Below, in pieces: positions 34,697-62,995 of a stretch of 64,000 bases of DNA. The number at the start of each line of letters is the position of its first letter. Within the stretch, counting starts at the first letter, position 1. Below the pieces are notes generated by a model that worked only from the letters and a program-made list of their open reading frames with translations, was not told the DNA's origin and searched no databases. Made by a program: the position numbers and the translations under genes. This DNA is from Rhodopseudomonas palustris HaA2 (GTDB lineage: Bacteria; Pseudomonadota; Alphaproteobacteria; Rhizobiales; Xanthobacteraceae), in the NCBI RefSeq assembly GCF_000013365.1, contig NC_007778.1, forward strand, positions 4,946,501-5,010,500, in the 5' to 3' direction.

Positions 34697-34778
34697 AGCT
34701 CCCGCTATGCAGTCTCCGTCACCCTGTGATCATCGCCCCGCGCCGGGCTTGCGGCCACGTTCTGTTCAAAGGCAAACC

Positions 34779-47581: not shown

Positions 47582-48358
47582 TCACTTGAGCGAGCCGAGC
47601 CGCCGAGACGCTCGGGTCGCAGATGCCTTGACCAGCTCGCAGAGCTCTTCGATGGCGCGAGCCGACAATCGCTGCCGTGGCACGGCGCCGCTCAGGGCGG
47701 CGATGATACCGCCGCTGGCGTCGCGAACGGGGACTCCGACGGCGAAGACGTTTTCGAGGTTTTCCTCGTCGCAGATGACGTAGCCCAGCCGACGACCCTC
47801 CTTGAGATCTTTGAGGATTGCGGACACCGAGCGCTTTGTCTTCTTCGTCAGCTGTTTGAGCGGGCCGGTGCCGAGCAGAGCCTGGACTTCGTCGTCCGAT
47901 CTGTCGAGCAGCAGAGCTTTGCCGAGCGCGGTCGAATGAAGATAGGTGCGTGATCCCGGCGCGTTAGTAATCGAAATCGGGCCGCCACTCTGCACCGTCG
48001 CCAGATACACGACATCCTGGCCGCGCAGCACGCCAAGGAAGCTGTTGACCTGGTGCTGCTCGGCAAGTAGGTGCAGTTCAGGTGCAGTGGCGGCGTTCAG
48101 GTCGGTCGAGGCGAGGAACGCCGAGCCGATCTGGAATGCCTTGTAGCCGATCTTCCACTTCGAATTTCCCAGCGACTTCTCGACGAAGCCGGCTTCGGAC
48201 AAAGTGTTGATCAAGCGCTGCGCGATGCTCGGCGCCACGCCGAGCTGGCGGCCCAGTTCGCGTACGCCGAGCTCCCCTTCCTGCCCCAGCAACTCCAGCA
48301 CCGCCAAAGCACGCGCGACGGTCTGACTGCCGGTCGCCGTCTTTCCCACACTAACCAT
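47582..48358 (-). CDS. IclR-family transcriptional regulator
   Basis: A 258-residue IclR regulator. The N-terminal winged helix-turn-helix is QTVARALAVLELLGQEG with ELGRQLGVAPSIAQRLINTLSEAGFV. The effector domain has LHSTALGKALL and GVPVRDASGGIIAALSGAVP. It lies 99 bases after cofD on the same strand, at the end of the long F420-associated operon. It is the best candidate for the protein that binds the 17-base palindrome (62961-62977) in front of that operon. The effector would be the pathway substrate. Confidence 0.9.
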   Translation of the reverse strand: MVSVGKTATGSQTVARALAVLELLGQEGELGVRELGRQLGVAPSIAQRLINTLSEAGFVEKSLGNSKWKIGYKAFQIGSAFLASTDLNAATAPELHLLAEQHQVNSFLGVLRGQDVVYLATVQSGGPISITNAPGSRTYLHSTALGKALLLDRSDDEVQALLGTGPLKQLTKKTKRSVSAILKDLKEGRRLGYVICDEENLENVFAVGVPVRDASGGIIAALSGAVPRQRLSARAIEELCELVKASATRASRRLGSLK

Positions 48359-48457
48359 CTGGATTTCGTCCCAGCGAGAAACTGCTGCCGTTCAGCGCGC
48401 GACGACACGGCATCGGCAGGCAATGCGGATACTCGGTTGCCGGCATCATTTCAAAGC

Positions 48458-49447
48458 CTATTTGGTCGAACCCTGGTCGGGGTGCGGCGCGCGGGTTCGG
48501 ATCAGCGCGCGGGCGAAGTCGAGGCAGCTGTCGGCCAGGGCCACCCGGTCAGCGTGCGAGCGCATCACCGTCGGCACGACATGGACGGCCATGCCGAGAG
48601 ATGCGATCTCCGGCGCCAAGGCCTCATCGCAGCGGTCGATGACGATGCCGTCGACGAGGCCGCGATAATGCGCGGCGACGCCGAGCGCCGACACCGGCGC
48701 ATTCAGTTCCTGCATGATCTTGGCCGCCGGACCTTTGATGGCGGCGCCGCCGACGATCGGCGACACCACCACGATCGGCACGCCGAGTTCCGTCAGCCAC
48801 GCCCGCGCACCCGGCACCGCCAGGATCGGATCGATGCTGAGATACGGATTCGACGGGCAGATGATCACCGCCGCCGGCTGAGGCAGCGCGCCGATCGCAG
48901 GATTGAGCCGTGCCTCCGCAGCGCCGGCAAACGCGATGCGATCGACCGGGACGCCGCAGGCCAGCCGCACGAAATATTCCTGGAAGGCGATTGCGCGGCC
49001 GCCGCTGTGGATCACCGTCCGGACCGCATCGTCCGACATCGGCAGCAGGCGCGCGGCGATGCCGAGCGCAGCACTCAGTTCGGCGGCGACCTCGGTCAAC
49101 GTCGCGCCTTCGCGCAGACGGTTGGTGCGATAGGCGTGGGTGGCGAGGTCGCGATCGCCGAGCTTGAACCAGGCCGGTCCACCGAGCCGCGCCAATTGCT
49201 CCATGAAGCCCCACGTCTCGCCTTCGAGGCCCCAGCCCTGCTGCGCATTGGCGACGCCGCCGAGCGTGTAGGTGACCGTGTCGAGATCGGGGCTGATGTG
49301 GAAGCCGAGATGCTCGAAATCGTCGCCGGTGTTGACGATGACGGTGAGCTTGTCGCCGAGCGCATGCGCCAGACCGTCCGCCAGCTTGGCGCCGCCGACG
49401 CCGCCGGCGAGTGCAATGATGTGATCGTCTGCAACAGGCGCGGTCAT
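48458..49447 (-). CDS. cofD: 2-phospho-L-lactate (or phosphoenolpyruvyl) transferase CofD/FbiA
   Basis: A 329-residue CofD-family enzyme with the N-terminal GGVGGAKLADGL (15-26), VNTGDDFEHLG and ICPSNPYLSIDPIL blocks. It joins the activated three-carbon acid made by CofC to FO, giving F420-0 or dehydro-F420-0. In bacteria the donor is often phosphoenolpyruvate-derived; the sequence does not tell me which. Its ATG overlaps the stop of cofE by four bases. It is the last biosynthetic gene of the long minus-strand operon. Confidence 0.92.
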   Translation of the reverse strand: MTAPVADDHIIALAGGVGGAKLADGLAHALGDKLTVIVNTGDDFEHLGFHISPDLDTVTYTLGGVANAQQGWGLEGETWGFMEQLARLGGPAWFKLGDRDLATHAYRTNRLREGATLTEVAAELSAALGIAARLLPMSDDAVRTVIHSGGRAIAFQEYFVRLACGVPVDRIAFAGAAEARLNPAIGALPQPAAVIICPSNPYLSIDPILAVPGARAWLTELGVPIVVVSPIVGGAAIKGPAAKIMQELNAPVSALGVAAHYRGLVDGIVIDRCDEALAPEIASLGMAVHVVPTVMRSHADRVALADSCLDFARALIRTRAPHPDQGSTK

Positions 49448-50202
49448 CGAAACAAATCCATGTGTTTGGGCCGCAGCAGATCACGCGCGGTGCCGATGCC
49501 GGCGAGATCGACCCCGCGGACCACGACGACCGGCGTCGCCTCCGCGGCCTGCCCCATCAGCAGCGACGCCGCTGCCGCGACTTCGTCGGCGGCGCCGACC
49601 TCGGTGGTCTCGAGCTTGCGGCCGAACAAATCGGGCTGACCACGCAGATCGCGCATCGTGGCGATGCCGCTGGCGCCGATCGTGGTGCCGATGGTGCCGT
49701 TGCGCCAGGCGCGACCGATGCTGTCGATGATCATCACGCCGACGGTCGCGCCGGTCCCGGCGATCAGCTGCTCCCGGATCTGCTGCGCCGAACCGTCGGG
49801 ATCGAGCGGCAGCAGCAGCGCGGTTTCGCCCTCTACATTGGAGCGATCGATGCCGGCATTGGCGAGCACCAGGCCGAGCCGGTGCTCGACGATGATCACG
49901 CCCGGCCGAACGCGCAGCACCTCGCTCGATTCCGCGAGGATCAATTCGACGATCCGCGGATCCTTGTGGGCCTGCGCGGCGATCTCGACAGCGCGCGGCG
50001 ACGGCGTCACCGCCGCCAGATCGACGCCGCGGCCCTCGGCCTTCGAGACCACTTTCTGCGCGATCACGACGATGTCGTGATCCTGCAGGTGCCGGCCGCA
50101 ATCCGCCAGCGATGCCAGGATCAGACCGGCCAGGTCGTCACCGGGCTCGACCAGCGGCACGCCCTCCAGGGCAAATATCTCCAAAGCACGTCGGACCGAC
50201 AA
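49444..50202 (-). CDS. cofE: Coenzyme F420-0:L-glutamate ligase CofE
   Basis: A 252-residue CofE-family ligase: PGDDLAGLILASL near the N terminus, VIAQKVVSKAEGR, LGLVLANAGIDRSN and IDSIGRAWRNGTIGTTIGASG. It adds glutamates to F420-0 in a GTP- and metal-dependent reaction. At this length it lacks the extra C-terminal FMN-reductase domain of mycobacterial FbiB, so another enzyme would reduce dehydro-F420 if that route is used. It starts 10 bases after npdG and overlaps cofD. Confidence 0.93.
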   Translation of the reverse strand: MSVRRALEIFALEGVPLVEPGDDLAGLILASLADCGRHLQDHDIVVIAQKVVSKAEGRGVDLAAVTPSPRAVEIAAQAHKDPRIVELILAESSEVLRVRPGVIIVEHRLGLVLANAGIDRSNVEGETALLLPLDPDGSAQQIREQLIAGTGATVGVMIIDSIGRAWRNGTIGTTIGASGIATMRDLRGQPDLFGRKLETTEVGAADEVAAAASLLMGQAAEATPVVVVRGVDLAGIGTARDLLRPKHMDLFR

Positions 50203-50212
50203 TCGACTCTCC

Positions 50213-50878
50213 TCAGGGGAGGCCGGTGATCCGCACTCCCGCGTCGGGAATCTTATAGAATTTATTGATCCAGATCAGCGCCGAAGTGAGGCTCTCCGAC
50301 ACCACCGAATTGGCCAGCGGCCCGATGTCGATGCCGCGCAGGCCGGCGTCGACGGCGAGCTGCATCACGGTGGCGCGCGCCTCCTTGTCGTCGCCGGCGA
50401 CCAGCACGTCGCAGTCGATCGCGTAGTCCGGATCCTTCAGCTTGTGGGCCGAGACGTTCTGGAACGCCGACACCACCCGCACGCCGTCGCCAAGCAGCGT
50501 CTGCACCGCGACGACGCAGGAATCGGTCTCCGGCAGCTGCACCCGGGTGACCTTGGGCGGCACCAGCGGCACGGTGACGTCGATCAGGATCTTGCCCTGC
50601 AGCGCGTCCTTCAGCCCCTGCACGGTCGCGATCTGCGCCTGATACGGCACGGTCAACACCACGATGTCGGCTTCCGCCACGCCGGAGGCGCTGTCGGCGC
50701 CTTCGGCTGTGCCGCCGCCGAGACGGGCATTGAGCTCGTCGGCCGCCGCCTTGGCCTTCGCGGCGTCGCGCGAGGCGATGATCACGCGGTGGCCGTGCTT
50801 GGCCCAGCGCAGCGCCAGTCCGCCGCCTTCGGCGCCGGTGCCGCCGACGACACAGATCGTATGAATTGTTGCAGTCAT
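50213..50878 (-). CDS. npdG: NADPH-dependent F420 reductase (Fno-type)
   Basis: A 221-residue F420H2:NADP+ oxidoreductase. The N-terminal Rossmann motif CVVGGTGAEGGGLALRWA is followed by VIIASRD, the usual NADP-selecting region, and VSAFQNVSAHKL in the F420 site. It transfers hydride between NADPH and F420, supplying F420H2 to the LLM-type enzymes upstream in the operon. It sits between the flavin-reductase-like gene (30-base gap) and cofE (10-base gap). Confidence 0.9.
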   Translation of the reverse strand: MTATIHTICVVGGTGAEGGGLALRWAKHGHRVIIASRDAAKAKAAADELNARLGGGTAEGADSASGVAEADIVVLTVPYQAQIATVQGLKDALQGKILIDVTVPLVPPKVTRVQLPETDSCVVAVQTLLGDGVRVVSAFQNVSAHKLKDPDYAIDCDVLVAGDDKEARATVMQLAVDAGLRGIDIGPLANSVVSESLTSALIWINKFYKIPDAGVRITGLP

Positions 50879-50908
50879 GGCATCCTCTGTTCTGCTATCA
50901 GCGACGGC

Positions 50909-51538
50909 TTATACTTCGACGATGTCGCCGAGCCGCACGTAGTTGCGGCCGCCGATGCGGGCGACCGGGGCATAGGCCCGGGGATCGATCTTGTGGTTCT
51001 GCGTCAATCCCGCGGCCACGTGCATCGCGACGATCCGCCCGACCACCAGATGGTTGGGGGCATCGCCGAAGGTCAGCACCTGGTCGAGCCGGCACTCGAA
51101 CTGGATCTTGCTGCCGGCGAGCCGCGGCGTCCGGATATGGCGCGACGGCAGCGTCGCGAAGCCGAGCAGATCGACCTCGCTGACGTCGGGTGGATACTCT
51201 TCGCTCGCCTGCTGGACGCTCTGTTCCCAGCCTTCCGGCACCATGTTGATGACGAACTCGCCGGCGCGCTGCACATTGGCCAGCGTGTCCTTGGCGACGT
51301 CGCTGCCGGTGCGCGGCCCGACCGAAAAGCCGAGCAGGCCCGGATCGACGGCGAGGATCACGAACTGGCTGAACGGCGCGGCATTGACGATGCCGCCCGG
51401 GCCGAGCGACGTGACGAACGCGATCGGCCGCGGGATCACCGCGCCGGTCAGCATCTTGTAGCGGTCGGCGCGGCCGAGCGCGGCGAGATCGATCTGATCG
51501 AACCGCTCCTCCGTCGCGCCTGCCGCCGGTTCGCTCAT
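50909..51538 (-). CDS. Flavin reductase-like / FMN-binding split-barrel protein
   Basis: A 209-residue protein of the flavin-reductase-like family. GAVIPRPIAFVTSLGPGGIVNAAPFSQF is represented by its typical PRPIAFVTS and NAAPFS parts, with EFVINMV and QFECRLDQVLTFGD further on. Members reduce FMN for monooxygenases or bind flavin, and some relatives act on deazaflavins. The ATG overlaps the stop of the LLM gene by four bases, so it may be its partner. Confidence 0.85.
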   Translation of the reverse strand: MSEPAAGATEERFDQIDLAALGRADRYKMLTGAVIPRPIAFVTSLGPGGIVNAAPFSQFVILAVDPGLLGFSVGPRTGSDVAKDTLANVQRAGEFVINMVPEGWEQSVQQASEEYPPDVSEVDLLGFATLPSRHIRTPRLAGSKIQFECRLDQVLTFGDAPNHLVVGRIVAMHVAAGLTQNHKIDPRAYAPVARIGGRNYVRLGDIVEV

Positions 51539-52542
51539 GCCGGCACCTTGGCCATCACTTCGGTGCCGAACCATTCGATCTGCTCGTTCATCTCCTCGAC
51601 CGTGTCGGCCGGAAACATCAGCGCGCTGCAGTGCTGGATGCCGATCGCGCGCAGCTTCTCGATCTTCTCGAGGATGACGTCGGGAGAACCGACCAGATTG
51701 GCGATCACCTGGTGGCTGAGGTCGCGGCCGGTGTAGGCGAGCGATACGCGATGCGCGACCAGGCCGCTCTCCATGTAGCGCTTCTCGGCCTCTTCCATGG
51801 TCTTGGCGATGGTGCAGGAAAACTGCGGGGCGATCTCGATCGACGCCGGGTCGCGGCCGAGTTCGGCGGCCCGCGCCTTGAGGTCCTTGATGCGCTGCTC
51901 CATCTCAGTGAGCGGCCGCCAGCCGGGCAGCCAGCCCTGCCCGTAACGCGCGGCGCGCTCGATTGCCTCGAGATTGTGCCCGCCGATATACAGCGGGAAC
52001 GGCTGCACCTTGCTCTTCGGAAACATCTCGACGTCTTTGAACGAGTAGTAGGCGCCTTCGTGGCTGGCGCTGGGCTCGTTGAACAGCATGTCGAGCGCCA
52101 GCAGCCCCTCGTCCATCATGTCGCCGCGCCGCGCCTTGGCGGCGCGCGAGCCGCCCCAGGCGAGAAATTCCTCCCGATAGGCGCCGAGCCCGACCGCCAT
52201 GATGAACCGCCCGTTCGACATCTGGTCGAGCGAGATCGCCTGCTTGGCGAGATACACCGGATCGCGCATCGGCAGCACGGTGAGCGCGGTGCCGAGCTTG
52301 ATCGTCTTGGTGGCGCCGGCGATCGCGGCGAGCACGATCAGCGGCTCGTAGAAGTTCGGCGGCTTGCCGGGAAACAGTTCGCGGACGTAGTTCTGGGTGG
52401 TGATGTGATCGTTGCCCCACACCGAATCATAGCCGAGGCGCTCGCAGAGCTGCGCCTGGGCGATGAAATCCTCCGGCCCCGCGAACGGGATCGGATACAT
52501 CACGCCTTCGAATCCGGTCGACAGACAGACACTGAACTTCAT
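51535..52542 (-). CDS. LLM-class (luciferase-like) oxidoreductase 1, probably F420-dependent
   Basis: A 335-residue TIM-barrel protein of the bacterial-luciferase superfamily: RLGYDSVWGNDHITTQNYV, then IKLGTALTVLPMRDPVYLAKQAISLDQMSNGRF, then PLYIGGHNLEAIERAARYGQGWLPGW. The family uses FMN or F420. Its place in an operon with F420 biosynthesis genes and an F420 reductase favours F420. GAGGAA precedes ATG 52542; ATG 52554 is a weaker alternative. It starts eight bases after the second LLM gene. Confidence 0.86.
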   Translation of the reverse strand: MKFSVCLSTGFEGVMYPIPFAGPEDFIAQAQLCERLGYDSVWGNDHITTQNYVRELFPGKPPNFYEPLIVLAAIAGATKTIKLGTALTVLPMRDPVYLAKQAISLDQMSNGRFIMAVGLGAYREEFLAWGGSRAAKARRGDMMDEGLLALDMLFNEPSASHEGAYYSFKDVEMFPKSKVQPFPLYIGGHNLEAIERAARYGQGWLPGWRPLTEMEQRIKDLKARAAELGRDPASIEIAPQFSCTIAKTMEEAEKRYMESGLVAHRVSLAYTGRDLSHQVIANLVGSPDVILEKIEKLRAIGIQHCSALMFPADTVEEMNEQIEWFGTEVMAKVPA

Positions 52543-52550
52543 GCGTTTCC

Positions 52551-53504
52551 TCATGACGATGTTAGGATGGCTTTGATCTGCGCGTCGTCGCGCACGCCGG
52601 CGATGACGATCTCGTCGAGCCCGGAGGCGTGATACTCGGCGAGCCGCCGGCGCAATTGTTCGGGCGTTCCGCTGGCGGCATGGCGGGCGACGATGTCGTC
52701 GCCGATCATCGCTTCGGCGCGGCTCCAATCCTCCGCCAGCACCGCGTCGTTCAGCCCTTGCTGATCGAGCGTGGTACCCGCCAGACCGAGATTGGTCTTG
52801 TGATGTGAGCCGCGCAGCAGAATCGCGAGAATCCGCCGCAGACGGTCGTTGGCACGCCTCTCGTCGTCGTCGACCGAGGCGTAGACCAGGCCCGAGGTCT
52901 TGACCTTGCGCCCCTTGGCGCCGCGCGCGACGCTCTGCAGCGTCTGCGCCACGAACGGCACCGAGGCGCCGGCGCTGATCAGCACGCCGTCGGCCTCGGC
53001 GCCGGCCAGCTCGAGCATCTGCGGACCCGACGCCGCCAGCACGATCGGAATCTCGGCCCCGGCCGCCGCCAGTCGGCGGCGATCGACGCGAAACGTCTCG
53101 CCCTGGAACGTGACCGTCTCGCCCGACAGCAGCGCGCGGACGAGCAGCAGCGCTTCGCGCATCGCCCGCAGCGGCTTGGCGCCGTCGACCCCGATCGCCG
53201 CGAGGTCGGCGGGCGCGCCGACGCCGAGGCACAGCTTGAGTCGCCCCGGAAAGCGTTCCGCCAGCGTCGCCGTGGCCATGGCGATCTGCACGGGATGCTG
53301 CGTCAGCGGGCTCACCGCCATCAGCGCGACCTTGAGGCGCCGCGTCTCCGACAGCGTCAGCGCGCCGAGCACCGCCGGATCGCGCAGGAACAGATGGTTG
53401 GCGATCCAGATCGTGTCGGCGCCACCGGCTTCGCCGGCCGCGACCTTGTCGCGAAACACGGCCGGTTCGTCTCTGCCGTCGCTGGAGATCGAGAGTTCAG
53501 ACAA
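52551..53504 (-). CDS. LLM-class oxidoreductase 2, probably F420-dependent
   Basis: A 317-residue luciferase-like protein, divergent from its neighbour: GGADTIWIANHLFLRDP, VALMAVSPLTQHPVQIAMATATLAERFPGR, KLCLGVGAP and VLISAGAS. The start is a TTG at 53504, overlapping the CoxS-like gene by eight bases; no ATG fits the family N terminus. Two LLM enzymes in one F420 operon suggest two reductive steps or two substrates. The substrate is unknown. Confidence 0.83.
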   Translation of the reverse strand: MSELSISSDGRDEPAVFRDKVAAGEAGGADTIWIANHLFLRDPAVLGALTLSETRRLKVALMAVSPLTQHPVQIAMATATLAERFPGRLKLCLGVGAPADLAAIGVDGAKPLRAMREALLLVRALLSGETVTFQGETFRVDRRRLAAAGAEIPIVLAASGPQMLELAGAEADGVLISAGASVPFVAQTLQSVARGAKGRKVKTSGLVYASVDDDERRANDRLRRILAILLRGSHHKTNLGLAGTTLDQQGLNDAVLAEDWSRAEAMIGDDIVARHAASGTPEQLRRRLAEYHASGLDEIVIAGVRDDAQIKAILTSS

Positions 53505-53964
53505 GGCTCTTCACCGCTTCGAGGATCTTGATGTAGCCGGTGCAGCGGCAGATGTTGCCGCGCAGATAATGCCGGATCTCCTGCTCGGTCGGATGCGGAT
53601 GGTGCTCCAGCAAAGCCGTGGTCGCCAGCACCATGCCGGGCGTGCAGAATCCGCACTGCATCGCTGCGTGGTCGACGAACGCCTGCTGCACCGGGCTGAG
53701 TTCGCCGCGCTGCGCCAGCCCTTCGATCGTCACCACCGATCTGCCGTCGATGTCGGCGGCGAGCGACGTGCAGCTACTCACCGGGAGACCGTCGACCAGC
53801 ACGGTGCAGGCGCCGCACACCTGCACGTCGCAGGAGCGCTTGGTGCCTTTCAGTCCAAGATCGTCGCGCAGGAAGTCGATCAGCAGTTCGAACGGCGCCA
53901 CCGACCGAGTCTGCGGCGCGCCGTTGAGCGTGAAGGAAATGTCGAGCGAAGCGATATCGGCCAT
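53497..53964 (-). CDS. Molybdenum hydroxylase small [2Fe-2S] subunit (CoxS-like)
   Basis: A 155-residue iron-sulfur subunit of the xanthine oxidase family. The plant-ferredoxin-type cluster uses Cys45, Cys50, Cys53 and Cys65; the second cluster uses Cys104, Cys107, Cys139 and Cys141 (CGFC and CRC). GGAGGG stands before ATG 53964. It follows the FAD subunit gene with a one-base gap and completes an L-G-M-S gene set. No export signal is present, so the enzyme is cytoplasmic. Confidence 0.93.
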   Translation of the reverse strand: MADIASLDISFTLNGAPQTRSVAPFELLIDFLRDDLGLKGTKRSCDVQVCGACTVLVDGLPVSSCTSLAADIDGRSVVTIEGLAQRGELSPVQQAFVDHAAMQCGFCTPGMVLATTALLEHHPHPTEQEIRHYLRGNICRCTGYIKILEAVKSLV

Positions 53965-53965
53965 G

Positions 53966-54832
53966 TCAGCGCCCTCCTGCCACGCCGGCGCTGTCCAGCA
54001 CTGCGCGTCCGATGAACACGGCGGCGAGATGCCGCTTGTAGTCGGCGCTGCCGTAGATGTCGTCGGACGCCGGCAGTTCGGCCGCCATGGCTTCGGCCGC
54101 CTGCGGCAAGACGTCGGACAGCGCCTGCGGCGGCACGCCCGCGAGTGCCGCTTCGACCGGCTCCGCATGAATCGGGTTGTCGCCGATGCAGCCGATCCAG
54201 ACGCGGTAGCGCGGCGCGCCGGCCTGCGACTGATACGCCGCCGCCACGCCGACGGCAGGGTATTCGAGGTGACCGAAGCTGCGATAGCAGAATTGCTCGC
54301 CGGCGGTCGGCAGCGGGACGCGGATCGCGGTGAGAATCTCGTCGTCGGCGCGCGCGGTGGTGAACGGACCGAGGATGAACTCGGCCATCGGCACGCTACG
54401 CCGGCCGTCCGGCCCGTGCAACGTCACCGATGCGCCGAGCAGGCAGAGCAGCGCCGGGGGATCGGCGTGCGGCTCCGAGAAACACAGATTGCCGGCGAGC
54501 GTGCCCGACGCCCGCACGCGGATGTTGCCGACGTTGTCGCTGAGCTTGGCGTAGGCCGGCAGGAATTCGCGGATCAGCGGGTCGGTGGCGAGCCGCAGAT
54601 GCGTCACCAGCGGCCCGATCACCAGCTCGTTGCCGTCGCGCGCGAGCCGGTCGAATCCGGCGATGCGCTTCAGATCGATCAGATGCTCGTAGCGCAGGAC
54701 GCGCGCCTTCAGCGCCAGCAGCAGCTCCGTTCCGCCCGCATAATACGCGCTGTCGTCGCCGAACTGTTCGCGCAATGCCAGCGCGGCCTCAAGCTCGGTC
54801 GGACGATGCAACTGGAACGGGGCGAGCCGCAC
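53966..54832 (-). CDS. Molybdenum hydroxylase FAD subunit (CoxM-like)
   Basis: A 288-residue FAD-binding subunit with YYAGGTELLLALK (FAD-binding), GNIRVRASGTLAGNLCFSEPHADPPALL, and the C-terminal CO-dehydrogenase flavoprotein domain. I chose GTG 54832, two bases after the coxG stop, since the longer frame lies inside coxG; GAAGAG is just upstream. It transfers electrons from the iron-sulfur subunit to an acceptor. Confidence 0.88.
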   Translation of the reverse strand: MRLAPFQLHRPTELEAALALREQFGDDSAYYAGGTELLLALKARVLRYEHLIDLKRIAGFDRLARDGNELVIGPLVTHLRLATDPLIREFLPAYAKLSDNVGNIRVRASGTLAGNLCFSEPHADPPALLCLLGASVTLHGPDGRRSVPMAEFILGPFTTARADDEILTAIRVPLPTAGEQFCYRSFGHLEYPAVGVAAAYQSQAGAPRYRVWIGCIGDNPIHAEPVEAALAGVPPQALSDVLPQAAEAMAAELPASDDIYGSADYKRHLAAVFIGRAVLDSAGVAGGR

Positions 54833-54834
54833 GA

Positions 54835-55287: not shown

Positions 55288-55288
55288 C

Positions 55289-57556
55289 TCAGCGGTCCTT
55301 CCTGTCCTTCAGCGCACGCCAGACGCGCTCCGGCGTCAGCGGCAACTGTTTGACGCGGATGCCGAAGCCGGTCGCCAGCGCATTGGCGATCGCCGGCGCG
55401 ATCGGCAGGATCGCGCCCTCGCCCATGCCGCGCATGCCGCCCGGCCCCGGCCCGCCGCCGTTTTCGATCAGCACGGTTTCAAACTGCTCGGGCACGTCGT
55501 CGATGGTCGGGACGTGATAGTCGATCATGGTGCCGTTGACCGGCTGGCCGTCGGCGTAGATCAGTTCCTCGAACAGCGCGTGGCCGAGCCCCATGATCGC
55601 CGCGCCCTCGTCCTGTCCTTCGGCGCCGCTGCGGTTGATGGCGCGGCCGATGTCGGCGACGCTGACATAGCGCTTCACTGCGATCTCGCCGGTGTCCTCG
55701 TCGAGCGTGATGCCGCAGCGGCCGGCCGCCGTTTCCCAGAACAGCGGCGCCTTGGCCAGCGCGCCGCCGCGTGACCGCGGCGAGATCCGGCCGATGCCGA
55801 TCAGTTCGCCGCTGTCGATGCCGAAATAAGGATGCAGCAGATCGGCGAAGCTGTAGCGCCGGCCTGCCGACGTGAAGCCGCCCGAGACCAGCGCGATGCT
55901 CGCGGGATCGAGCCCGAGCGTCGACGCGGCGATGTCGTCGATCTGCGCCTTGATGTCGGCGGCGGCGTCCTCGATCGCCAGCGCCATCATCAGCGACGAG
56001 CGGCTGGCGCCGGTGCCCCAGTCGAACGGCGCAATCGCGGTGTCGGGCGTCAGCGCGCTGACCGCGGACACCGGCTGGCCGAGCTGTTCGGCGGCAACGC
56101 GGCACAGCACCTCGCGAATGCCCTGCCCGACCTCGATGCTGGAGGAGATCACCGCGATCGACCCGTCGATCTTGAGCCGCAGCAGCACGCCGGCGACCGG
56201 CGAGTTCGCCGGATCGGCGACGCCGAGCGCGGTGCCGTGGACGATCCTGCCGTGCGGCCCCTGCGCGTCGAGCCGGCTCATCGCCTGCGACGCCAGCCCC
56301 ATCGCTTCCGCCATATCGACGTCGATCGGCGTCAGATCGGGGCGGACATGCTCGCCGCGTTTCAGCATGTTGCGGTAGCGCAGCTCGACCGGATCGATGC
56401 CGAGCGCGTCGGCGATGATGTCCATCTGGGATTCGGTGGCCCATACGCCCTGCGGTCCGCCGATCGAGCGAAACGCCGCGCCGGGCACGGTGTTGGTGTA
56501 GACCGCCGTGCTCCGCAGCCGCAGATTCGGAATCCTGTACGGGCCGATGGCGCGGATCGCCGCCTTGATCGCCACGGCCGGCCCGGTGTCCGCATAGGCG
56601 CCGCCGTTCATCAGCACCTCGACGGATTTCGCCTGCAGCATGCCGTCGGCGCTGACCGCCGTCTTCAGGTTGATCGTCGCGCTCAGCCGCCGCGCGGTCA
56701 GCATCGATTCCGATGCGGAGAAGCAGATCCGCACCGGGCGGCCGATCTTCCACGCCACCGCCGCGACCAGCGGATCGATCTTCACCGAGGCCTTGCCGCC
56801 GAAGCCGCCGCCGATCAGCGGCGTGATGATCCGCACCTTGGCGATCGGCAGATCGAAGATGCGCGACAGCACCTTCTGCACCGCGGTCGGCGCCTGGCCG
56901 CAGCTCCACACCGTCAGCCCGTCGTCGCCGAACGACGCGATGCCGCAATGCGGCTCCATCGCGTAGTGATAGACCATCGGGAAGTCGAAGCTGTCTTCGA
57001 ACACGCGATCCGCCGACGCGAATGCCGCCGCGACGTCGCCGGTCTCGTAAGCGTAGCTCTGGAAGATGTTGGTGCCGGCGACCGGCTTGGCTTCGCCCTT
57101 GAAGTAGAAGTCCTTGAGCGGCTGGACGGCGGCGTGCAGCAGCGGCGCATCCGGCGCCAAAGCATCGGCGGCCTCGGTGACGTAAGGCAACGGGTCGTAA
57201 TCGACCATCACCGCATCGAGCGCCTCTTCGGCCGCGGCCTCGGATTCGGCCACCACCACCGCCACCGGCTCGCCGACATAGCGCACGCGATCGAGCGCGA
57301 TCAGCGGCCGGTCCTTCAGCGACACGCCCCAGATCGCGTCGATGCCGTCGAAATCGGCGCCCGTGACGATGCCGATCACGCCCGGCATCGCAAGCGCGGC
57401 GGCGATGTCGATGCCGGTGATCCGCGCGTGCGGCATCGTGCTGCGCAGCACCTTGCCGTGAGCCATGCCGGGCACGACCAGATCGGAGATGAACGCGGCG
57501 CGGCCGGTCACCTTGTCGAGGAAGTCAACGCGATCGGGACGTGCCGCGGCGGTCAT
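55289..57556 (-). CDS. Molybdenum hydroxylase large subunit (xanthine dehydrogenase type)
   Basis: A 755-residue molybdopterin-binding subunit. The N-terminal aldehyde-oxidase-type domain begins at DFLDKVTGRAAFISDL. The cofactor-binding GGGFGGKASVKIDPL is near residue 245, and the catalytic Glu is in MRGMGEGAILP near residue 710. The active-site loop reads AAFRSIGGPQ, as in xanthine and N-heterocycle hydroxylases, not the Cys-containing loop of true CO dehydrogenase. It therefore probably hydroxylates a heteroaromatic or aldehyde. No molybdenum-insertion chaperone gene is nearby. It begins one base after tctA. Confidence 0.92.
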   Translation of the reverse strand: MTAAARPDRVDFLDKVTGRAAFISDLVVPGMAHGKVLRSTMPHARITGIDIAAALAMPGVIGIVTGADFDGIDAIWGVSLKDRPLIALDRVRYVGEPVAVVVAESEAAAEEALDAVMVDYDPLPYVTEAADALAPDAPLLHAAVQPLKDFYFKGEAKPVAGTNIFQSYAYETGDVAAAFASADRVFEDSFDFPMVYHYAMEPHCGIASFGDDGLTVWSCGQAPTAVQKVLSRIFDLPIAKVRIITPLIGGGFGGKASVKIDPLVAAVAWKIGRPVRICFSASESMLTARRLSATINLKTAVSADGMLQAKSVEVLMNGGAYADTGPAVAIKAAIRAIGPYRIPNLRLRSTAVYTNTVPGAAFRSIGGPQGVWATESQMDIIADALGIDPVELRYRNMLKRGEHVRPDLTPIDVDMAEAMGLASQAMSRLDAQGPHGRIVHGTALGVADPANSPVAGVLLRLKIDGSIAVISSSIEVGQGIREVLCRVAAEQLGQPVSAVSALTPDTAIAPFDWGTGASRSSLMMALAIEDAAADIKAQIDDIAASTLGLDPASIALVSGGFTSAGRRYSFADLLHPYFGIDSGELIGIGRISPRSRGGALAKAPLFWETAAGRCGITLDEDTGEIAVKRYVSVADIGRAINRSGAEGQDEGAAIMGLGHALFEELIYADGQPVNGTMIDYHVPTIDDVPEQFETVLIENGGGPGPGGMRGMGEGAILPIAPAIANALATGFGIRVKQLPLTPERVWRALKDRKDR

Positions 57557-57557
57557 C

Positions 57558-59072
57558 TCAGCCCTCCGACGGCACGGCGCGGTGGCGCGTGCGGCCGAAA
57601 TGCGACCACAGCTGGGCCGTCAGGATGACCGCGGCGACCAGCAGGATCGTCAGCGACATCGGCCGCTGCAGGACGATCAGCAGGCTGCCGTCGCCCATCA
57701 GCATCGATTGCCGCAGCGCGGTGTCGAGAATGTTGGCGAGGATGAACGCCATGATCAGCGGACCGGCGTCGAGGCTGGCCTTGCGCAGCAGATAGCCGAT
57801 GCCGCCGAACAGCATCAGCGTGGTCACGTCGGCGAAATTGCTGCGCAGGCTGTAGGTGCCGAAGATCGCGATCAGCAGGATCGTGGCGCTGAGCAGCCAG
57901 GACGGCACGCGGAGCAACTGCACCCACAGCCCGACCAGCGGCAGGTTCAGCACCAGCAGCATGATGTTGCCGACATACATCGACGCAATGACACCCCAGA
58001 ACACGTCGGGATTCTTCACCAGCATCAATGGGCCGGGTTGCACGTTCTGGATCAGCAGACCGGCGAACAGCACCGCCGTCACCGCGTTGCCCGGCAGGCC
58101 GAGCGTGAGCAGCGGAATGAACGAGGCCGTCGCCGCCGAATTGTTGGCCGATTCCGGCCCGGCGACGCCGGCGATGGCGCCGTGGCCGAACTGCTCCGGC
58201 GTCTTCGACAGCTTCTTCTCCAGCGTGTAGCTCATCAGCGAGGCGAGAATGGCGCCGCCGCCGGGAATCAGCCCGACGAAGAACCCGATCACCGAGCCGC
58301 GTGCGATCGGGCCACTGGATTCGCGCCAATCCTGGCGGCTCGGAAACAGCCGGCCGATCTTGGTCGACAGCAGCGAGCCGCGCGATTTCTCCTCGAGATT
58401 GTGCAGGATCTCGGCGACGCCGAACAGGCCCATCAGCATCGGCACCAGATCGATGCCGTCGGTGATGGCCATGATGTTGAAAGTGTAGCGCTCGACGCCG
58501 GTGATGGTGTCGATGCCGACCAGACCGAGCAGCAGCCCGACCAGCACCATGGTGATGCCGCGGACCGGCGAGCCGCCGGACAGCGTGGCGCTCAACGACA
58601 GCCCGAACAGGGCCAGCGCGAAGTACTCGGGTGGCCCGAAGGTGACGGCGAATTTGGCGAACAGCGGGCCGACCAGCGCCAGCGCGCACACTGCGACGGT
58701 GCCGGCGATGAACGACCCGATCGCGGCGATCGCCAGTGCCGGGCCGGCGCGGCCCTTCTTGGCCATCTGATAGCCGTCGATGCAGGTGATCACCGAGGCG
58801 GCCTCGCCCGGGACCTTGAGCAGGATCGAGGTGGTCGAGCCGCCATACATCGCGCCGTAATAGATCGAGGCCAGCATGATGATGGCGCCGAGCGGCGAGC
58901 CGGCGTGATAGGTGAGCGGCAGCAGCACCGCGATCGTCGTCACCGGGCCGAGCCCCGGCAGCACCCCGACCAGCGTGCCGAGCACCGAGCCGATCGCCGC
59001 GTACAGCAGGTTCGACGGCTCGAGCGACAGCGAGATACCGTAGGCGAGTTTTTCCAGGGCGTCGAACATCAC
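57558..59072 (-). CDS. tctA: Tripartite tricarboxylate transporter large membrane subunit (TctA)
   Basis: A 504-residue protein with about twelve transmembrane segments of the TctA family: GTLVGVLPGLGPVTTIAVLLPLTY, IYYGAMYGGSTTSILLKVPGEAASV and IPGGGAILASLMSYTLEKKLSK. With TctB and the periplasmic TctC it forms a secondary carboxylate importer. The start overlaps tctB by four bases. It imports whatever small carboxylate the pathway uses. Confidence 0.94.
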   Translation of the reverse strand: MMFDALEKLAYGISLSLEPSNLLYAAIGSVLGTLVGVLPGLGPVTTIAVLLPLTYHAGSPLGAIIMLASIYYGAMYGGSTTSILLKVPGEAASVITCIDGYQMAKKGRAGPALAIAAIGSFIAGTVAVCALALVGPLFAKFAVTFGPPEYFALALFGLSLSATLSGGSPVRGITMVLVGLLLGLVGIDTITGVERYTFNIMAITDGIDLVPMLMGLFGVAEILHNLEEKSRGSLLSTKIGRLFPSRQDWRESSGPIARGSVIGFFVGLIPGGGAILASLMSYTLEKKLSKTPEQFGHGAIAGVAGPESANNSAATASFIPLLTLGLPGNAVTAVLFAGLLIQNVQPGPLMLVKNPDVFWGVIASMYVGNIMLLVLNLPLVGLWVQLLRVPSWLLSATILLIAIFGTYSLRSNFADVTTLMLFGGIGYLLRKASLDAGPLIMAFILANILDTALRQSMLMGDGSLLIVLQRPMSLTILLVAAVILTAQLWSHFGRTRHRAVPSEG

Positions 59073-59521
59073 CAGGCGGGCCCCAATTGCATGGGCACCT
59101 TGAGCAACAACGGGAAGATCACCAGCCCGCAGCCGGTGAGGCCGGCGCTGGCGATGACGGCGCGCAGCATGCTCTGGCGATAGAATCCGCGAATCCAGAT
59201 CGTCAGCAGGACGAGCGTCGCGATCACGAAGCCGGTGTAGGGAACGACGATCGCGTAGACGATCGTCGTCAGGATCGCCAAACCCGGCGCGAGCGCGAAG
59301 CGGCTCTCGTCGGCCGGCAGCCGCTCACGCACCACGAGCACCAGCAGCCCCAGCAGCGCGATCGACACCGCCAGCGGCAGCACCCCCGGCCCCGGCGCGT
59401 CGTCGACCCAGAAGCCGAGGCGGAAGGCGCCGAGCCCGAAGGTCAGCGCCAGCGCCAGCAGCATCAGGACCGCCACGTAGGTCGGCGTCGTCAGCCGTGC
59501 CATGGCGATGGGGCGGCTCAT
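59069..59521 (-). CDS. tctB: Tripartite tricarboxylate transporter small membrane subunit (TctB)
   Basis: A 150-residue protein with four hydrophobic segments and the FWVDDAPGPGVLPLAVSIALL pattern (here FWVDDAPGPGVLPL) typical of TctB. Start ATG 59521 overlaps the tctC stop by four bases; ATG 59503 is an alternative. It partners TctA in the inner membrane. Confidence 0.88.
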   Translation of the reverse strand: MSRPIAMARLTTPTYVAVLMLLALALTFGLGAFRLGFWVDDAPGPGVLPLAVSIALLGLLVLVVRERLPADESRFALAPGLAILTTIVYAIVVPYTGFVIATLVLLTIWIRGFYRQSMLRAVIASAGLTGCGLVIFPLLLKVPMQLGPAW

Positions 59522-60471
59522 TTCGCCTTGCCGATGTCCTGCAGGATTTCGCGCGCCGAGGCGTATTCGCCCTCGACCAGCTTCTTGACCTCGGCACCCG
59601 GCAGGTCGAGCGGCACCATGCCGAGCCGCTCCATCGTGTCCTGGAACGTCTTGTCGCTCATCGCCTTGCGGAAGGCGGTTTCGAGCTTCATGCGCACGTC
59701 TTCCGGCATCCCGGCCGGTCCGATGATCGCCTGCACCGACCGCAGCGATTTGAGACCCTTCTCCGACAGGCTCGGCACGTCCGGATACGATTTCGAGCGC
59801 TGCGGCGTGGTGACCGCGAGCAGCCGCACTTCCTTGCTCTCGATGAAAGGCGCCCAGACCGACGTCTCCATGATGAAGTCGACGTGGCCGCCGAGCAGCG
59901 CCGGCACCGAGGCCGCGGAGCCCTGCTGCGGCACATGGACGAACTTCGCCTTGGTGGCGAATTGCAGCGCCTCGCTGGTGAGATGCTGGGTGGTGCCGAC
60001 GCCGGCGGTGCCGTACTTGATCGCTCCCGGCTTCGCCTTGCCCTCGGCGATCAGATCGTCGATCGTCTTCCAGCGCGCATCGGCCTTCACGGCGATGCCG
60101 ATCAGATTGTCGCCATAGTAGCTGATGTACGAAAACGCGTTGATCGGGTCGAAGGGTAGCTGACGTCCCTGCAACGCGGCCAGATAGCTGGTGCTGGACA
60201 GCGTGCCGATCGTGTAGCCGTCCGGCTGGGCTTTGGCGAGGGCGGCCATGCCGATCGAGGTCGAGGCGCCCGGCTGGTTGATCACCACGATGGTCTGGCC
60301 GAGCGAGGCTTCGGCCGCCTTGGCCAGCACGCGCGCGGTCTGGTCGGTGCTGCCTCCGGCGGCCCACGGAACGATCAGCGTGATCGGCTTGTCGGGATAG
60401 TCCGCGGCCGCCGCCTGCGGCAGGAGCGCCGCCAACACCAGACCGACAGCTCCGACGATTTTCGATTTCAT
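59518..60471 (-). CDS. tctC: Tripartite tricarboxylate transporter substrate-binding protein (TctC/Bug)
   Basis: A 317-residue exported binding protein. A signal peptide (about 1-22) is followed by YPDKPITLIVPWAAGGSTDQTAR, GQTIVVINQPGASTSIG and the aspartate-containing mature region of Bug proteins. It captures a carboxylate in the periplasm for TctAB. I chose ATG 60471 for its spaced GGAG and clean signal peptide; ATGs at 60477 and 60483 are also in frame. It lies 18 bases after the PLP-enzyme gene. Confidence 0.92.
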   Translation of the reverse strand: MKSKIVGAVGLVLAALLPQAAAADYPDKPITLIVPWAAGGSTDQTARVLAKAAEASLGQTIVVINQPGASTSIGMAALAKAQPDGYTIGTLSSTSYLAALQGRQLPFDPINAFSYISYYGDNLIGIAVKADARWKTIDDLIAEGKAKPGAIKYGTAGVGTTQHLTSEALQFATKAKFVHVPQQGSAASVPALLGGHVDFIMETSVWAPFIESKEVRLLAVTTPQRSKSYPDVPSLSEKGLKSLRSVQAIIGPAGMPEDVRMKLETAFRKAMSDKTFQDTMERLGMVPLDLPGAEVKKLVEGEYASAREILQDIGKAK

Positions 60472-60489
60472 GTCCATCTCCATCTCGCC

Positions 60490-61752
60490 TCAGTTGCTTG
60501 GAACTATTCCCGCCGATTGCAGGATTTGCCAGGCTGCCGACAGATCGGACGGCACCGCCATGGTGTCGCCCTGGGTGGCGGCAGTGACCGCCGGGTCTTT
60601 CAGACCCGACGCCGTGAGCAGCGAGACGACGACGTCGTCCGGCTTGATGATTCCCGATTTTGCGAGCCGCTCGACCGCGACCAGTCCGCCGGCGGACGCC
60701 GGCTCGAGATAGCGGGCCTCACGCGTCGCCAGCAGACGCTGCCATCGCATGGTGTCGTCGTTGGAGATCGTCACCGCTCGGCCGCCGGATTTTCGCACGA
60801 TCTCGAGCGCCTGATAGGTGCCCTGCACGGCGCCGATCGAGCCCGACACCGTGTCGAAGGTCTTCGGCATCGCCGGCGGCGCTTCGAGGTCGTCGTCGAG
60901 CGCCCGGCCGATCGAGCCGTAGACCTCCGCGGCGACCATCTTCGGCATCCGATCGATCCAGCCCGCCGCCTTCATCTCGGTGAAGCCGCGCCACATCCCG
61001 ATCAGCGCGTCGCCGTAGCACACCGGCAGGATGCACCAATCCGGGGCCCGCCAGCCGAGCTGCTCGACGGTCTCGTAGGCCAGCGTCTTGTAGCCTTCGA
61101 TGCCGTAAGGATTGGAGCCGACGGCCGGGCCGAAAAACGGCGAAGTCGGAAACCAGCCATACTGCCGCACGGCGTGCTCCATGAACCGCCAGCGGTCTTC
61201 CTTCTGCGGCACGGTGACGACCTTGGCCCCATAGGCGCGCATCTGCGTCACCATCGGACCTGCGGCCCAGCCGAACGTGAACACCACGCAGGGGATGCCG
61301 GCTTTCGCCGCATAAGCGGCGGCGGCGGCGCCGGCGTTGCCGGATGAACTCGACACGATAGTCTTGGCGCCCATCTGCTTGGCGACCGACACCGCGATGC
61401 AGGCGAGACGGTCCTTGAACGACCAGGTCGGATTGCCGCTCTCGTCCTTGCCGTAGAGCCGTTTGAGACCGAGTTGATCGCCCACCGCGCGCAGTTGGCG
61501 GAGCGGCGAACCGCCCTCGCCGAGCGACACGGCGTCGGCCTCGCTCACCGGCAGCACGTCGCCGTAGCGCCACAGGCCGCTCGACGGCCCGGCGCCGGCC
61601 GCGTCCGGCTTGCGCAAGGCGAGCGGCTCATCGTAGACGACGATGAGATTGCTCCGCACCACCGGCCGGCAGGCCGGGCAGTCCTCGGCGTAATGATCCG
61701 GGGCATAAAGGGCGCCGCAGCGCAGGCACTGCAGCCCTTTGACCTTTGCCAT
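60490..61752 (-). CDS. Threonine synthase-family PLP-dependent enzyme
   Basis: A 420-residue fold-type II PLP enzyme. An N-terminal zinc-ribbon-like four-Cys set (Cys9, Cys12, Cys25, Cys28) precedes the PLP Lys113 in NPTWSFKDR. The phosphate-binding loop is SSSSGNAGAAAAA. It resembles threonine synthase but sits in a catabolic operon between an M24 peptidase and a carboxylate importer. A lyase or β/γ-elimination or replacement on the pathway's amino acid is therefore more likely than housekeeping threonine synthesis. Its start overlaps the peptidase stop by one base (TGATG). Confidence 0.85.
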   Translation of the reverse strand: MAKVKGLQCLRCGALYAPDHYAEDCPACRPVVRSNLIVVYDEPLALRKPDAAGAGPSSGLWRYGDVLPVSEADAVSLGEGGSPLRQLRAVGDQLGLKRLYGKDESGNPTWSFKDRLACIAVSVAKQMGAKTIVSSSSGNAGAAAAAYAAKAGIPCVVFTFGWAAGPMVTQMRAYGAKVVTVPQKEDRWRFMEHAVRQYGWFPTSPFFGPAVGSNPYGIEGYKTLAYETVEQLGWRAPDWCILPVCYGDALIGMWRGFTEMKAAGWIDRMPKMVAAEVYGSIGRALDDDLEAPPAMPKTFDTVSGSIGAVQGTYQALEIVRKSGGRAVTISNDDTMRWQRLLATREARYLEPASAGGLVAVERLAKSGIIKPDDVVVSLLTASGLKDPAVTAATQGDTMAVPSDLSAAWQILQSAGIVPSN

Positions 61753-62951
61753 CAGAGCACCCGCAGCGCCGTGTTCGACAGCATGAACGACTCGACGCCG
61801 TCCTTGGTGACGACCAGCGTGTCCTCGACCTGCAGACCGGCGTAACCGATCTCGTAGTACGGCGTCTCGACGCAGATCACCATCCCCTCCTCGAACACGT
61901 CCTTGCTGGAGGGCGCGATGTTCGGCGCGTCGTAGCCGTCGAGGCCGATGCCGTGACCGACATGGCTGCGCTGATAATGCGGGATGCCCTCGCGGCGCAC
62001 GGCCTCCACCGCGGCATTGAACACATCGGCCGCCTTGACGCCCGGCTTGATCATCTCGATCGCGCGATCGAGACCGACGCAGATCGCGCGATGATACTTG
62101 CGCGTCTTGGCGTCCGGCTCGCCGAGCACGCCGTTGCGGGCGATATCGGCGCGATAGTGCTTGTAGCGGCCGCCGACGTCGAAGCGGATGATATCGCCGG
62201 CGATCAGTTCGCGATCGGTCGGCTGCACATTGGTCCCCGCACTGCGGGCGCCGACGCCGATGCAGCCGAGCACGGGCATTCCACCCTCGACGATGGTCTT
62301 GGTGTGAAATGCGCGCGCCAGATCGTTTTCGGTGGCCCCGACCTTGGCCACCGCCAGCGCCGCATCGATCGACATGTCGGCGATCTGCGCCGACTTGCGC
62401 AGCCGCGCGATCTCCTCCGGCGTCTTGATCGCCCGCCCGTAGCGGAAAATGTCCGCGGCCCTCACCAGCGTGGCGCCGGGCAGCGCCTCGGCGAGCTGAT
62501 CCCAATATTGCGGCAGGATGCCGATCTCGTCGACGCCGATCCGCGCGTTCTGCAGGCCGCGGTCCTTGATCACCTTCACAAGGGCCTTGACGGCGTCGCC
62601 GCAGTCGCCCTGCGCGAGCAATGCGTCGATGCGCCGATCCTGCGCATCGAGCTCCACGCCTTCCGCCTTGTTGACCGAAAACCCGCCGAAGCGGCGAATA
62701 TCCTTCACCCAGACTTCCGAGTCGGCGGCGAGATCGATCAGGCCGGTCGAGGCGATCACCGCCGGCTCTCCACCGCCCGGCGCCGGCAGCAGCGCATAGG
62801 CCTGCGGACCGCGGCGGATCCACTGGCTCATCGCCCAGAAGCCGCTCGCATAGGTGACGTTTTCCGGCATCGTCGCGACGAGCGCGGCGAGCGACGCCTG
62901 CTTCATTCCCGCGTTGAGCCGTTCGATGTTGGCGAGCATTGCACTGTCCAT
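61752..62951 (-). CDS. M24-family metallopeptidase (Xaa-Pro dipeptidase/creatinase type)
   Basis: A 399-residue pita-bread-fold protein. The creatinase N-terminal domain covers about 1-170. The metal-binding residues lie in IIRFDVGGRYKHYRADIAR (two Asp), HVGHGIGLDGYD (His) and VETPYYEIGYAGLQVED (two Glu). Members cleave Xaa-Pro bonds or other C-N bonds, as in creatinase and ectoine hydrolase. It is the first gene of the long operon; the promoter and palindrome lie 10-75 bases upstream. ATG 62951 is the likely start; ATG 62939 is in frame. Confidence 0.88.
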   Translation of the reverse strand: MDSAMLANIERLNAGMKQASLAALVATMPENVTYASGFWAMSQWIRRGPQAYALLPAPGGGEPAVIASTGLIDLAADSEVWVKDIRRFGGFSVNKAEGVELDAQDRRIDALLAQGDCGDAVKALVKVIKDRGLQNARIGVDEIGILPQYWDQLAEALPGATLVRAADIFRYGRAIKTPEEIARLRKSAQIADMSIDAALAVAKVGATENDLARAFHTKTIVEGGMPVLGCIGVGARSAGTNVQPTDRELIAGDIIRFDVGGRYKHYRADIARNGVLGEPDAKTRKYHRAICVGLDRAIEMIKPGVKAADVFNAAVEAVRREGIPHYQRSHVGHGIGLDGYDAPNIAPSSKDVFEEGMVICVETPYYEIGYAGLQVEDTLVVTKDGVESFMLSNTALRVL

Positions 62952-62960
62952 ACTTGCTTC

Positions 62961-62977
62961 GTTCCGAATTTCGGAAC
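62961..62977. promoter_or_regulatory. Palindromic operator, probably for the IclR regulator
   Basis: GTTCCGAATTTCGGAAC is a perfect 8-1-8 inverted repeat. It lies between a sigma-70-like promoter and the start of the operon's first gene, where a bound protein would block transcription. TTCCG-type arms of this kind are common IclR-family sites, and an iclR gene ends the operon. Confidence 0.65.
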
Positions 62978-62995
62978 ATCGTTCCCATTGAAAGA

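Follow-up and report, generated by a model that had tools for sequence, protein, structure and literature searches.

Why Proteobacteria make F420, a rare redox cofactor, was given as an open question in a 2021 review, which also described the F420-dependent reductases and F420-reducing dehydrogenases of newly recognised bacterial producers outside the Actinobacteria as lacking experimental study. A stretch of 64,000 nucleotides (C1:4946501-5010500, hereafter the window) from the one-contig genome of Rhodopseudomonas palustris HaA2 (5.33 Mb; 5,331,656 bp) bears on this question, with F420 genes lying inside a long catabolic operon. Our literature search, which left most subscription journals outside its reach, found no description of F420 genes within a proteobacterial catabolic operon. 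An original prediction, made from the letters of the window, had proposed that F420 synthesis, F420 recycling, substrate uptake and degradation are switched on together. We suggest, with a probability of about 60%, that the catabolic region carries its own complete set of F420 synthesis and recycling genes under shared IclR-type control and that F420 is made on demand.

Gene identities were assigned with Pfam and NCBIfam models, taking each curated NCBIfam cut-off as the pass line (Table 1). Fifteen minus-strand genes, one more than originally counted, run from 62951 to 48458 with junctions of −8 to +30 bases. Their order (5′ to 3′) is M24, PALP, tctC, tctB, tctA, coxL, coxG, coxM, coxS, LLMa, LLMb, flavin reductase, npdG, cofE and cofD, and iclR1 starts 99 bases past the end of cofD on the same strand. 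The other particulars of the prediction, namely gene identities, minus strand, coordinates, gaps of at most 30 bases with overlaps, and the distance to iclR, were all borne out. It had overlooked cofC, which lies 240 bases upstream of the M24 gene, inside the window, and overlaps fbiC by 4 bases. The fbiC gene runs beyond the window edge into an adjoining stretch of the same genome (L002:2288-4681, where the L002 position equals the window position minus 61500). The F420 pathway appears split over two transcription units, fbiC-cofC and M24...npdG-cofE-cofD. By these model assignments, all F420 synthesis genes (FbiC, CofC, CofD and CofE) are present at this locus together with the F420 reductase NpdG; CofD has one match genome-wide, and FbiC/CofH is likewise single in the genome.

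A candidate IclR-type operator of three boxes (GGAAC-N3-GTTCCG-N5-CGGAAC) lies directly before the M24 gene, and sigma-70-like boxes, identified by eye, stand directly upstream of it. The locus thereby combines an IclR gene with a putative three-box operator at the promoter, as expected of an IclR-regulated catabolic operon. Five distinct sites with at most 3 mismatches occur within 14 kb, where 0.06 would be expected from a total of 22 in the whole genome, and all five stand before first genes (M24, fbiC, livH, iclR2 and aldL). Of 15 M24 loci compared, nine (this genome and eight others, from several genera) have the operator or a close variant directly before M24, following TTGAC-type and −10-like boxes. 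Across 1.37 Mb of fetched loci the pattern gave 46 matches with at most 2 mismatches, some in loci overlapping the same DNA, and the reversed pattern gave none. Thirty-eight of the 46 lie no more than 104 bases from the start of an M24, iclR, livH, aldL, PALP, coxM or RidA match; among the other eight, four have none of these genes near, two fall within a livH match that probably begins further in, and two are 345 bases upstream of tctC. The operator before fbiC is retained in G582 and G614 (G and L numbers denote our genomes and loci). In the accessible part of PMC8222616, two IclR consensus types are given that, joined, fit the three-box form. Separate constitutive promoters before npdG, cofE or cofD had been named as evidence that would count against a single unit; a simple sigma-70 scan of the operon found none over threshold (shuffles gave a mean of 1.2), a weak test that the boxes seen by eye before the operators also escape. 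A terminator scan gave 4 hits against a shuffle mean of 6.4, which is no excess; one of the four, at 51343, falls within the operon on the minus strand. IclR1, the only one of the two regulators compared, is nearest to the NCBIfam model BhcR, below its cut-off. As BhcR is an activator in Paracoccus, according to the accessible part of PMC11323563, control here could be of either sign.

The F420 genes and the catabolic genes occur together across the family. We surveyed 296 family genomes, of which 84, counting R. palustris HaA2 itself, have CofD (83 pass the Pfam cut-off); the Fisher tests reported here ignore the relatedness of genomes. At E 1e-60, 15 of the 16 genomes with M24 were CofD-positive (84/296 overall; p = 3e-8), as were 20 of the 21 with LLMb (p = 3e-11), and with M24 at 52% identity or more the figure was 14 of 14 (p = 1e-8). 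Among the 16 genomes of the genus, five have CofD and the same five have M24 and LLMb; the remaining 11 lack all three. Judged from these gene counts, the coupling exceeds chance, and the failure to co-occur in relatives that had been listed as possible counter-evidence was not observed. A wider scan with an M24 alignment against 84,980 species yielded 45 named loci. All 17 genomes with an LLM gene in the fetched flank were CofD-positive, vs 3 of the 22 without (p = 2e-8), a split that leaves out two Streptomyces loci (L238, L239), in which an LLM gene could be overlooked on two short contigs (L234, L237), and in which L215 and L235 are near copies. Eleven of the 24 named loci without LLM have iclR-M24-PALP with Tct genes, the others having different neighbours; this LLM-free arrangement is found in Rhizobium, Agrobacterium, Brucella, Cupriavidus, Variovorax, Paracoccus and others. 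Since M24 and the pyridoxal phosphate (PLP) lyase occur without F420, the core presumably functions without it, and the LLM, molybdenum (Mo) hydroxylase and F420 genes would be an added part.

On plasmids, LLMb had no match and M24 had matches in nine records, all below 60% identity. The four of these that we viewed (L240-L243; Paraburkholderia sabiae, Bradyrhizobium elkanii, Bosea vestrisii and Agrobacterium pusense) are typed conjugative, and all carry the M24 homologue. L242 and L243 have iclR-M24-PLP-Tct with a cysteine-synthase-like gene and kinase pair close by; L240 has an ABC transporter, a hydro-lyase and a PLP lyase beside M24, and L241 has none of these neighbours.

We compared neighbourhoods in 60 stretches from 56 of the 84 CofD family genomes (four genus genomes gave two each), the 63 CofD genomes at class level, with their 30 short loci (L003-L032), lying outside this comparison. 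Other genera carry this gene set too; identities mostly fall between 50 and 90%, with lower values for tctB and cofC, and the F420 genes occupy varying places in it. Gene order across relatives, the comparison originally proposed, gave support: the same set is found in all five CofD-positive genus members, the other four having the entire operon plus cofC and fbiC, and the order is shuffled in other genera. At least one fbi/cof gene lies within the operon in 12 of the 14 close-M24 genomes, at differing positions. In Afipia massiliensis (G588) the whole set runs in one direction as M24-PALP-tctCBA-coxLGMS-LLMa-LLMb-flvR-fbiC-npdG-cofE-cofD-cofC-iclR. The genus g300 has cofC, cofD and cofE (in G549 only cofC and cofE) beside LLMb-LLMa-coxSMGL-PALP-M24, and G552 has M24-PALP-LLMb-fbiC-cofE-cofD-cofC, divergent from liv-hyuAB. 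Trees were built from rows covering 75% of the query (CofD 58, CofE 56 and FbiC 37 rows). The number of gains and losses of the embedded state forced by well-supported branches was 3 for cofD, 5 for cofE and 3 for fbiC, and none of 500 shuffles was as low; the embedded label reflects the content of the fetched stretch, and where a stretch ends early some unlabelled rows may be wrong. G552 is the clearest case of separate recruitment, with its FbiC in the Rhodopseudomonas/Afipia embedded clade and its CofD and CofE in another clade with non-embedded genes; a betaproteobacterial metagenome-assembled genome (L232) is a further case. Neighbourhoods, co-occurrence, trees and the shared operator together give good support to one regulated unit, the core of what was originally proposed; substrate induction and IclR binding are predictions of this reading.

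A second module, livHMGF-hyuAB-LLMd-LLMc, lies divergent to fbiC, followed by iclR2 (on the other strand), aldL and livK. It shares paralogues with the main operon (identity of 52% for LLMa/LLMc, 47% for LLMb/LLMd and 52% for IclR1/IclR2). HyuAB is of the hydantoinase A / hydantoinase B type; its nearest models are those of the caprolactamase CapAB, whose cut-offs it does not reach (490 and 186 bits vs 1000). At E 1e-10 the genome has five LLM genes, four of them in this region, so its likely F420 users are almost all here. Of the 11 congeners without CofD, eight have a counterpart of the fifth gene (C1:2024073) with a similar profile range and one more has a shorter match, as read from the match table rather than a tree.

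Related modules were seen elsewhere. L183-L186 carry a sister module, M24-LLMd-npdG-RidA, with SdaA (serine dehydratase) in L183, L184 and L186 and RidA alone in L185; the genome of L184 (G644) has no CofD match. L066, L179, L224, L225, L213 and L214 hold a paralogous module in which M24 is joined by an LLMb-type gene, coxMSL and an LLMa/LLMc-like gene; all except L214 add a D-serine-dehydratase-like enzyme. The module stands directly upstream of fbiC-cofC in R. palustris 2.1.18 and R. infernalis. R. palustris 2.1.18 (G450) also has a second CofH/FbiC match on a different contig (C16:31456-32496), at a distance of about 14 kb from its M24-LLMd-npdG module. A RidA homologue is found close to the locus in three g300 cases. 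Other F420 clusters of the family (L073, L075, L081, L088, L097, L100, L114, L115, L117 and L121) adjoin a different CoxMSL-type Mo hydroxylase (coxS at 39-48% identity), and the pairing of Mo hydroxylase with F420 may thus be wider.

The predicted enzymes fit a role for F420 to differing degrees. The best 10 of the 13 solved relatives of LLMa are Mer, HMAD, Fgd and Adf chains. The LLMb model (pLDDT 80) has flavin mononucleotide (FMN) monooxygenases as its nearest folds; luciferase, SfnG, MsuD and RutA are among its best structural matches, and Mer first appears at rank 29 of the 50 best listed. Use of F420, claimed for both LLM enzymes, is thus likely for LLMa and uncertain for LLMb. In M24, the residues D258, D269, H333, E362 and E376 are invariant in 12 homologues; we take them to be the five metal ligands of the fold. 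The M24 model (pLDDT 82) matches prolidases best by E-value and the ectoine hydrolase DoeA best by TM-score (0.81-0.82). DoeA (EutD in the ectoine utilisation operon) is an M24 hydrolase that opens a cyclic C-N bond. M24 scored far below the cut-offs for DoeA (NF038259, 97.3 vs 575 bits; TIGR02993, 76.3 vs 613), and this identity was rejected, as was aerobic CO dehydrogenase for CoxLMSG (TIGR02416, 274.6 vs 991). CofE, at 252 aa, is a stand-alone ligase that matches only positions 10-243 of the 449-position FbiB model NF009810 (210 bits vs a cut-off of 304); actinobacterial FbiB, in contrast, fuses the ligase to a dehydro-F420-0 reductase. CofC has Gly (in YGPAS), by eye in HMMER alignments to 7p97 and 6bwg, at the position where Ser marks the 3-phosphoglycerate (3PG) type (Mrhiz S162 / Mtb G163; PMC8764529). 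We therefore rejected 3PG-F420 for this system; with CofE lacking the reductase domain of FbiB, classical or dehydro F420 is likelier.

Among the closest known systems is the npd picrate cluster of Rhodococcus and Nocardioides, in which, as here, the F420 reductase NpdG, LLM enzymes and an IclR-type gene are neighbours. That cluster is actinobacterial, whereas the present region is alphaproteobacterial, and we presume it to consist of npdG and LLM genes without fbiC/cofC/cofD/cofE, M24, PALP, Tct or Mo hydroxylase. The accessible part of PMC8222616 lists the IclR-type NpdR for use of 2,4,6-trinitrophenol (picrate) in Rhodococcus opacus, and F420H2-dependent LLM reductases are described, in a source accessible in part, as passing hydride to the ring and so enabling degradation. 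Other proteobacterial F420 clusters (fbiC-cofC-cofD-cofE, for example in Mycetohabitans) have the same enzymes and the same FbiC fusion as here. The enzyme predicted to reduce F420 in Betaproteobacteria is Fno, of the NpdG type; in Alphaproteobacteria Fgd is predicted as well. Mycetohabitans makes 3PG-F420 and has no known F420-dependent enzymes, whereas here CofC has the Gly noted above and the F420 genes are interleaved with a catabolic operon.

We propose the following model. By binding the operator immediately past each −10 box, IclR1 and/or IclR2 would prevent transcription. Once a pathway ligand released the regulator, F420 would be made together with the degradative enzymes and both transporters (Tct and Liv), NpdG reducing F420 with NADPH. 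An N-containing carboxylate would be taken up, the Mo hydroxylase would adjust the oxidation state of a ring or C-N unit, and the Mer-like LLMa, perhaps with LLMb, would reduce a C=N or C=C bond using F420H2. M24 (HyuAB in the sister module) would hydrolyse a C-N bond. A PLP lyase would finally release a 2-oxo acid and ammonia; this would be PALP here, and in sister modules, some of which have RidA, either SdaA or an enzyme resembling D-serine dehydratase or threonine aldolase.

Several observations weigh against F420 being an integral, co-regulated part of this pathway. Genome-wide, the operator pattern with at most 3 mismatches gave 22 matches vs 14 for the reversed control; taken by itself the pattern is thus weak, and the signal lies in the clustering. 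Because the pattern was derived from the M24 site, that site does not count as independent. The remaining six of the 15 M24 loci have iclR directly before M24, with the operator before iclR in five of the six. The fbiC genes of G450 and G524 lack an operator of their own and follow another LLM module. Bacteria without CofD likewise have the operator ahead of iclR-M24 operons, and it thus belongs to the M24 pathway rather than being F420-specific. The G596 operon holds only fbiC, npdG and cofC of the F420 genes, and in G652 and G483 the cof genes lie elsewhere, outside the catabolic operon. G644, the sole exception to co-occurrence for M24 and LLMb alike, has M24, LLMd, npdG, RidA and SdaA genes without a CofD match. 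Three label changes on a tree could reflect one gain and two losses. F420 enzymes outside the LLM family were covered in part, by the profiles PF04075 and PF04432. The control for the FDOR profile PF04075 gave no match anywhere; PF04432 had one match (C1:4591394), and its control also matched in Synechococcus, presumably BciB.

These points bear on two other explanations. F420 could serve general cell functions, its genes being constitutively expressed and merely neighbours of the catabolic set. Many family genomes do have cof genes in a fetched stretch that lacks the M24/PALP/LLMb set, so F420 has other uses in the family. For this locus we nevertheless consider a general role quite improbable, given the concentration of LLM genes in the region, the joint absence of the F420 pathway and the catabolic set from most of the genus, the F420 genes of differing lineages found in the operon of differing genera, and the operator at the fbiC promoter. 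Alternatively, the LLM enzymes, or at least LLMb, might be FMNH2-dependent monooxygenases fed by the flavin reductase, as in RutA-like ring opening, with F420 used for one side reaction only. The FMN-type fold of LLMb together with the adjoining flavin reductase gene means that one step may indeed be FMN- and O2-dependent, and that gene comes next after LLMb in the window, G588, G596, G652, G549 and L206. For the pathway as a whole we think this unlikely: LLMa is closest to F420 enzymes, LLMb-type genes almost always come with CofD, npdG comes straight after LLMd, a gene of the LLMb type, in four sister loci without a flavin reductase match, and in G483 and G552 LLMb has no flavin reductase match in the fetched locus.

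On-demand F420 synthesis within the catabolic unit, which we prefer, also has a more specific form, in which an azole or other small N-heteroaromatic carboxylate would be broken down reductively to a serine-, cysteine- or diaminopropionate-like amino acid that the PLP lyase cleaves to pyruvate and ammonia. Our guess at the substrate is an azole or other N-heterocyclic carboxylate. The combination of an XDH-family enzyme, an LLM, a C-N hydrolase (M24 or HyuAB) and a PF00291 lyase parallels the reductive uric acid pathway (XdhD, YgfK or UacX, SsnA, HyuA, YgeW/UacY, YgeY and YgeX), the nearest published parallel in the literature consulted, which shares an XDH-family enzyme, a reductive step, hydrolases and a PF00291 lyase; in Chloroflexota a putative F420 LLM takes the place of YgfK or UacX (accessible part of PMC12507026). 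SdaA, the D-serine-dehydratase-like enzyme and RidA in the sister modules point the same way. The uric acid cluster differs in being anaerobic and in its hydrolase families, and the accessible part of its description mentions no F420 synthesis genes. HyuAB is nearest to caprolactamase, below cut-off, whereas the uric acid HyuA is described there as a D-phenylhydantoinase. We put this specific form forward as a doubtful, tentative proposal.

Table 1. Predicted genes and sites of the F420-catabolic locus. Positions are those of the window unless prefixed L002; scores are in bits.
Feature	Position	Strand	Remarks
IclR1 regulator	47582..48358	-	PF01614, PF09339
CofD	48458..49447	-	TIGR01819 278 vs cut-off 257
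CofE, F420-0:L-glutamate ligase	49444..50202	-	TIGR01916 288 vs cut-off 181
NpdG, NADPH-dependent F420 reductase	50213..50878	-	TIGR01915 196 vs cut-off 150
Flavin reductase-like protein	50909..51538	-	PF01613; start 51538 or 51574
LLMb, TIGR03619-family LLM oxidoreductase	51535..52542	-	TIGR03619 189.8 vs cut-off 166.9
LLMa, Mer-like LLM oxidoreductase, likely F420-dependent	52551..53504	-	PF00296
Mo-hydroxylase 2Fe-2S subunit (coxS)	53497..53964	-	PF01799, PF00111
Mo-hydroxylase FAD subunit (coxM)	53966..54832	-	PF00941; start 54832 or 54838
CoxG-like	54835..55287	-	PF06240
Mo-hydroxylase large subunit (coxL), xanthine dehydrogenase (XDH) family	55289..57556	-	PF02738, PF20256, PF01315
TctA	57558..59072	-	PF01970 518
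TctB	59069..59521	-	PF07331
TctC periplasmic binding protein	59518..60483	-	PF03401
PALP, fold-type II PLP enzyme, threonine-synthase-like	60490..61752	-	PF00291 232; nearest NCBIfam models are threonine synthases, below cut-off
M24 metallohydrolase, prolidase / ectoine-hydrolase fold, first gene of main operon	61752..62951	-	PF00557 150
Candidate three-box IclR-type operator before M24	62961..62985	-	0 mismatches
Sigma-70-like boxes TTGACG / TACTGT	62996..63025	-	spacer 18 (17 to GTACTG); by eye; below scan threshold
CofC	63192..63791	-	PF01983; TIGR03552 125 vs cut-off 105
fbiC 3′ end (CofGH fusion)	63788..64000, onward to L002:4681	-	NF006687 1180 vs cut-off 1018; TIGR03550 and TIGR03551 also over cut-off
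Operator before fbiC	L002:4770-4794		
Operator before livH	L002:5105-5129		
iclR2, second IclR regulator	L002:14408-15223		
Operators at iclR2/aldL	L002:15198-15222 and L002:15373-15397		
aldL, threonine-aldolase-like PLP enzyme	L002:15419-16483		

Elsewhere in the window, a siderophore-type cluster on the plus strand (28614-37601) comprises two IucA/IucC synthetases, a DUF6005 protein, a periplasmic binding protein and two FecCD permeases, and is accompanied by two TonB-dependent receptors (39641-41911 and 42577-44898). A histidine kinase with a DAHL domain is encoded on the minus strand at 19269-21818.

The region suggests why such bacteria make F420: it offers a concrete and testable role, in genera with cultured strains and with named candidate operators and regulators. 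F420 made on demand predicts that the cofactor appears only on the right substrate, and the LLM, M24 and Mo-hydroxylase enzymes are candidates for the degradation of N-compounds. More broadly, and here we see the odds as evenly balanced, F420 in these Proteobacteria may be a disposable, substrate-induced part of one degradative pathway family rather than a housekeeping cofactor. An IclR regulon of M24 and PLP lyase, present in many F420-less bacteria, would then have acquired F420-dependent reduction, along with the cofactor genes, on more than one occasion. If so, F420 would be scarce or absent in cells that are not induced, and this would account for the trace amounts that alphaproteobacteria are reported to have.

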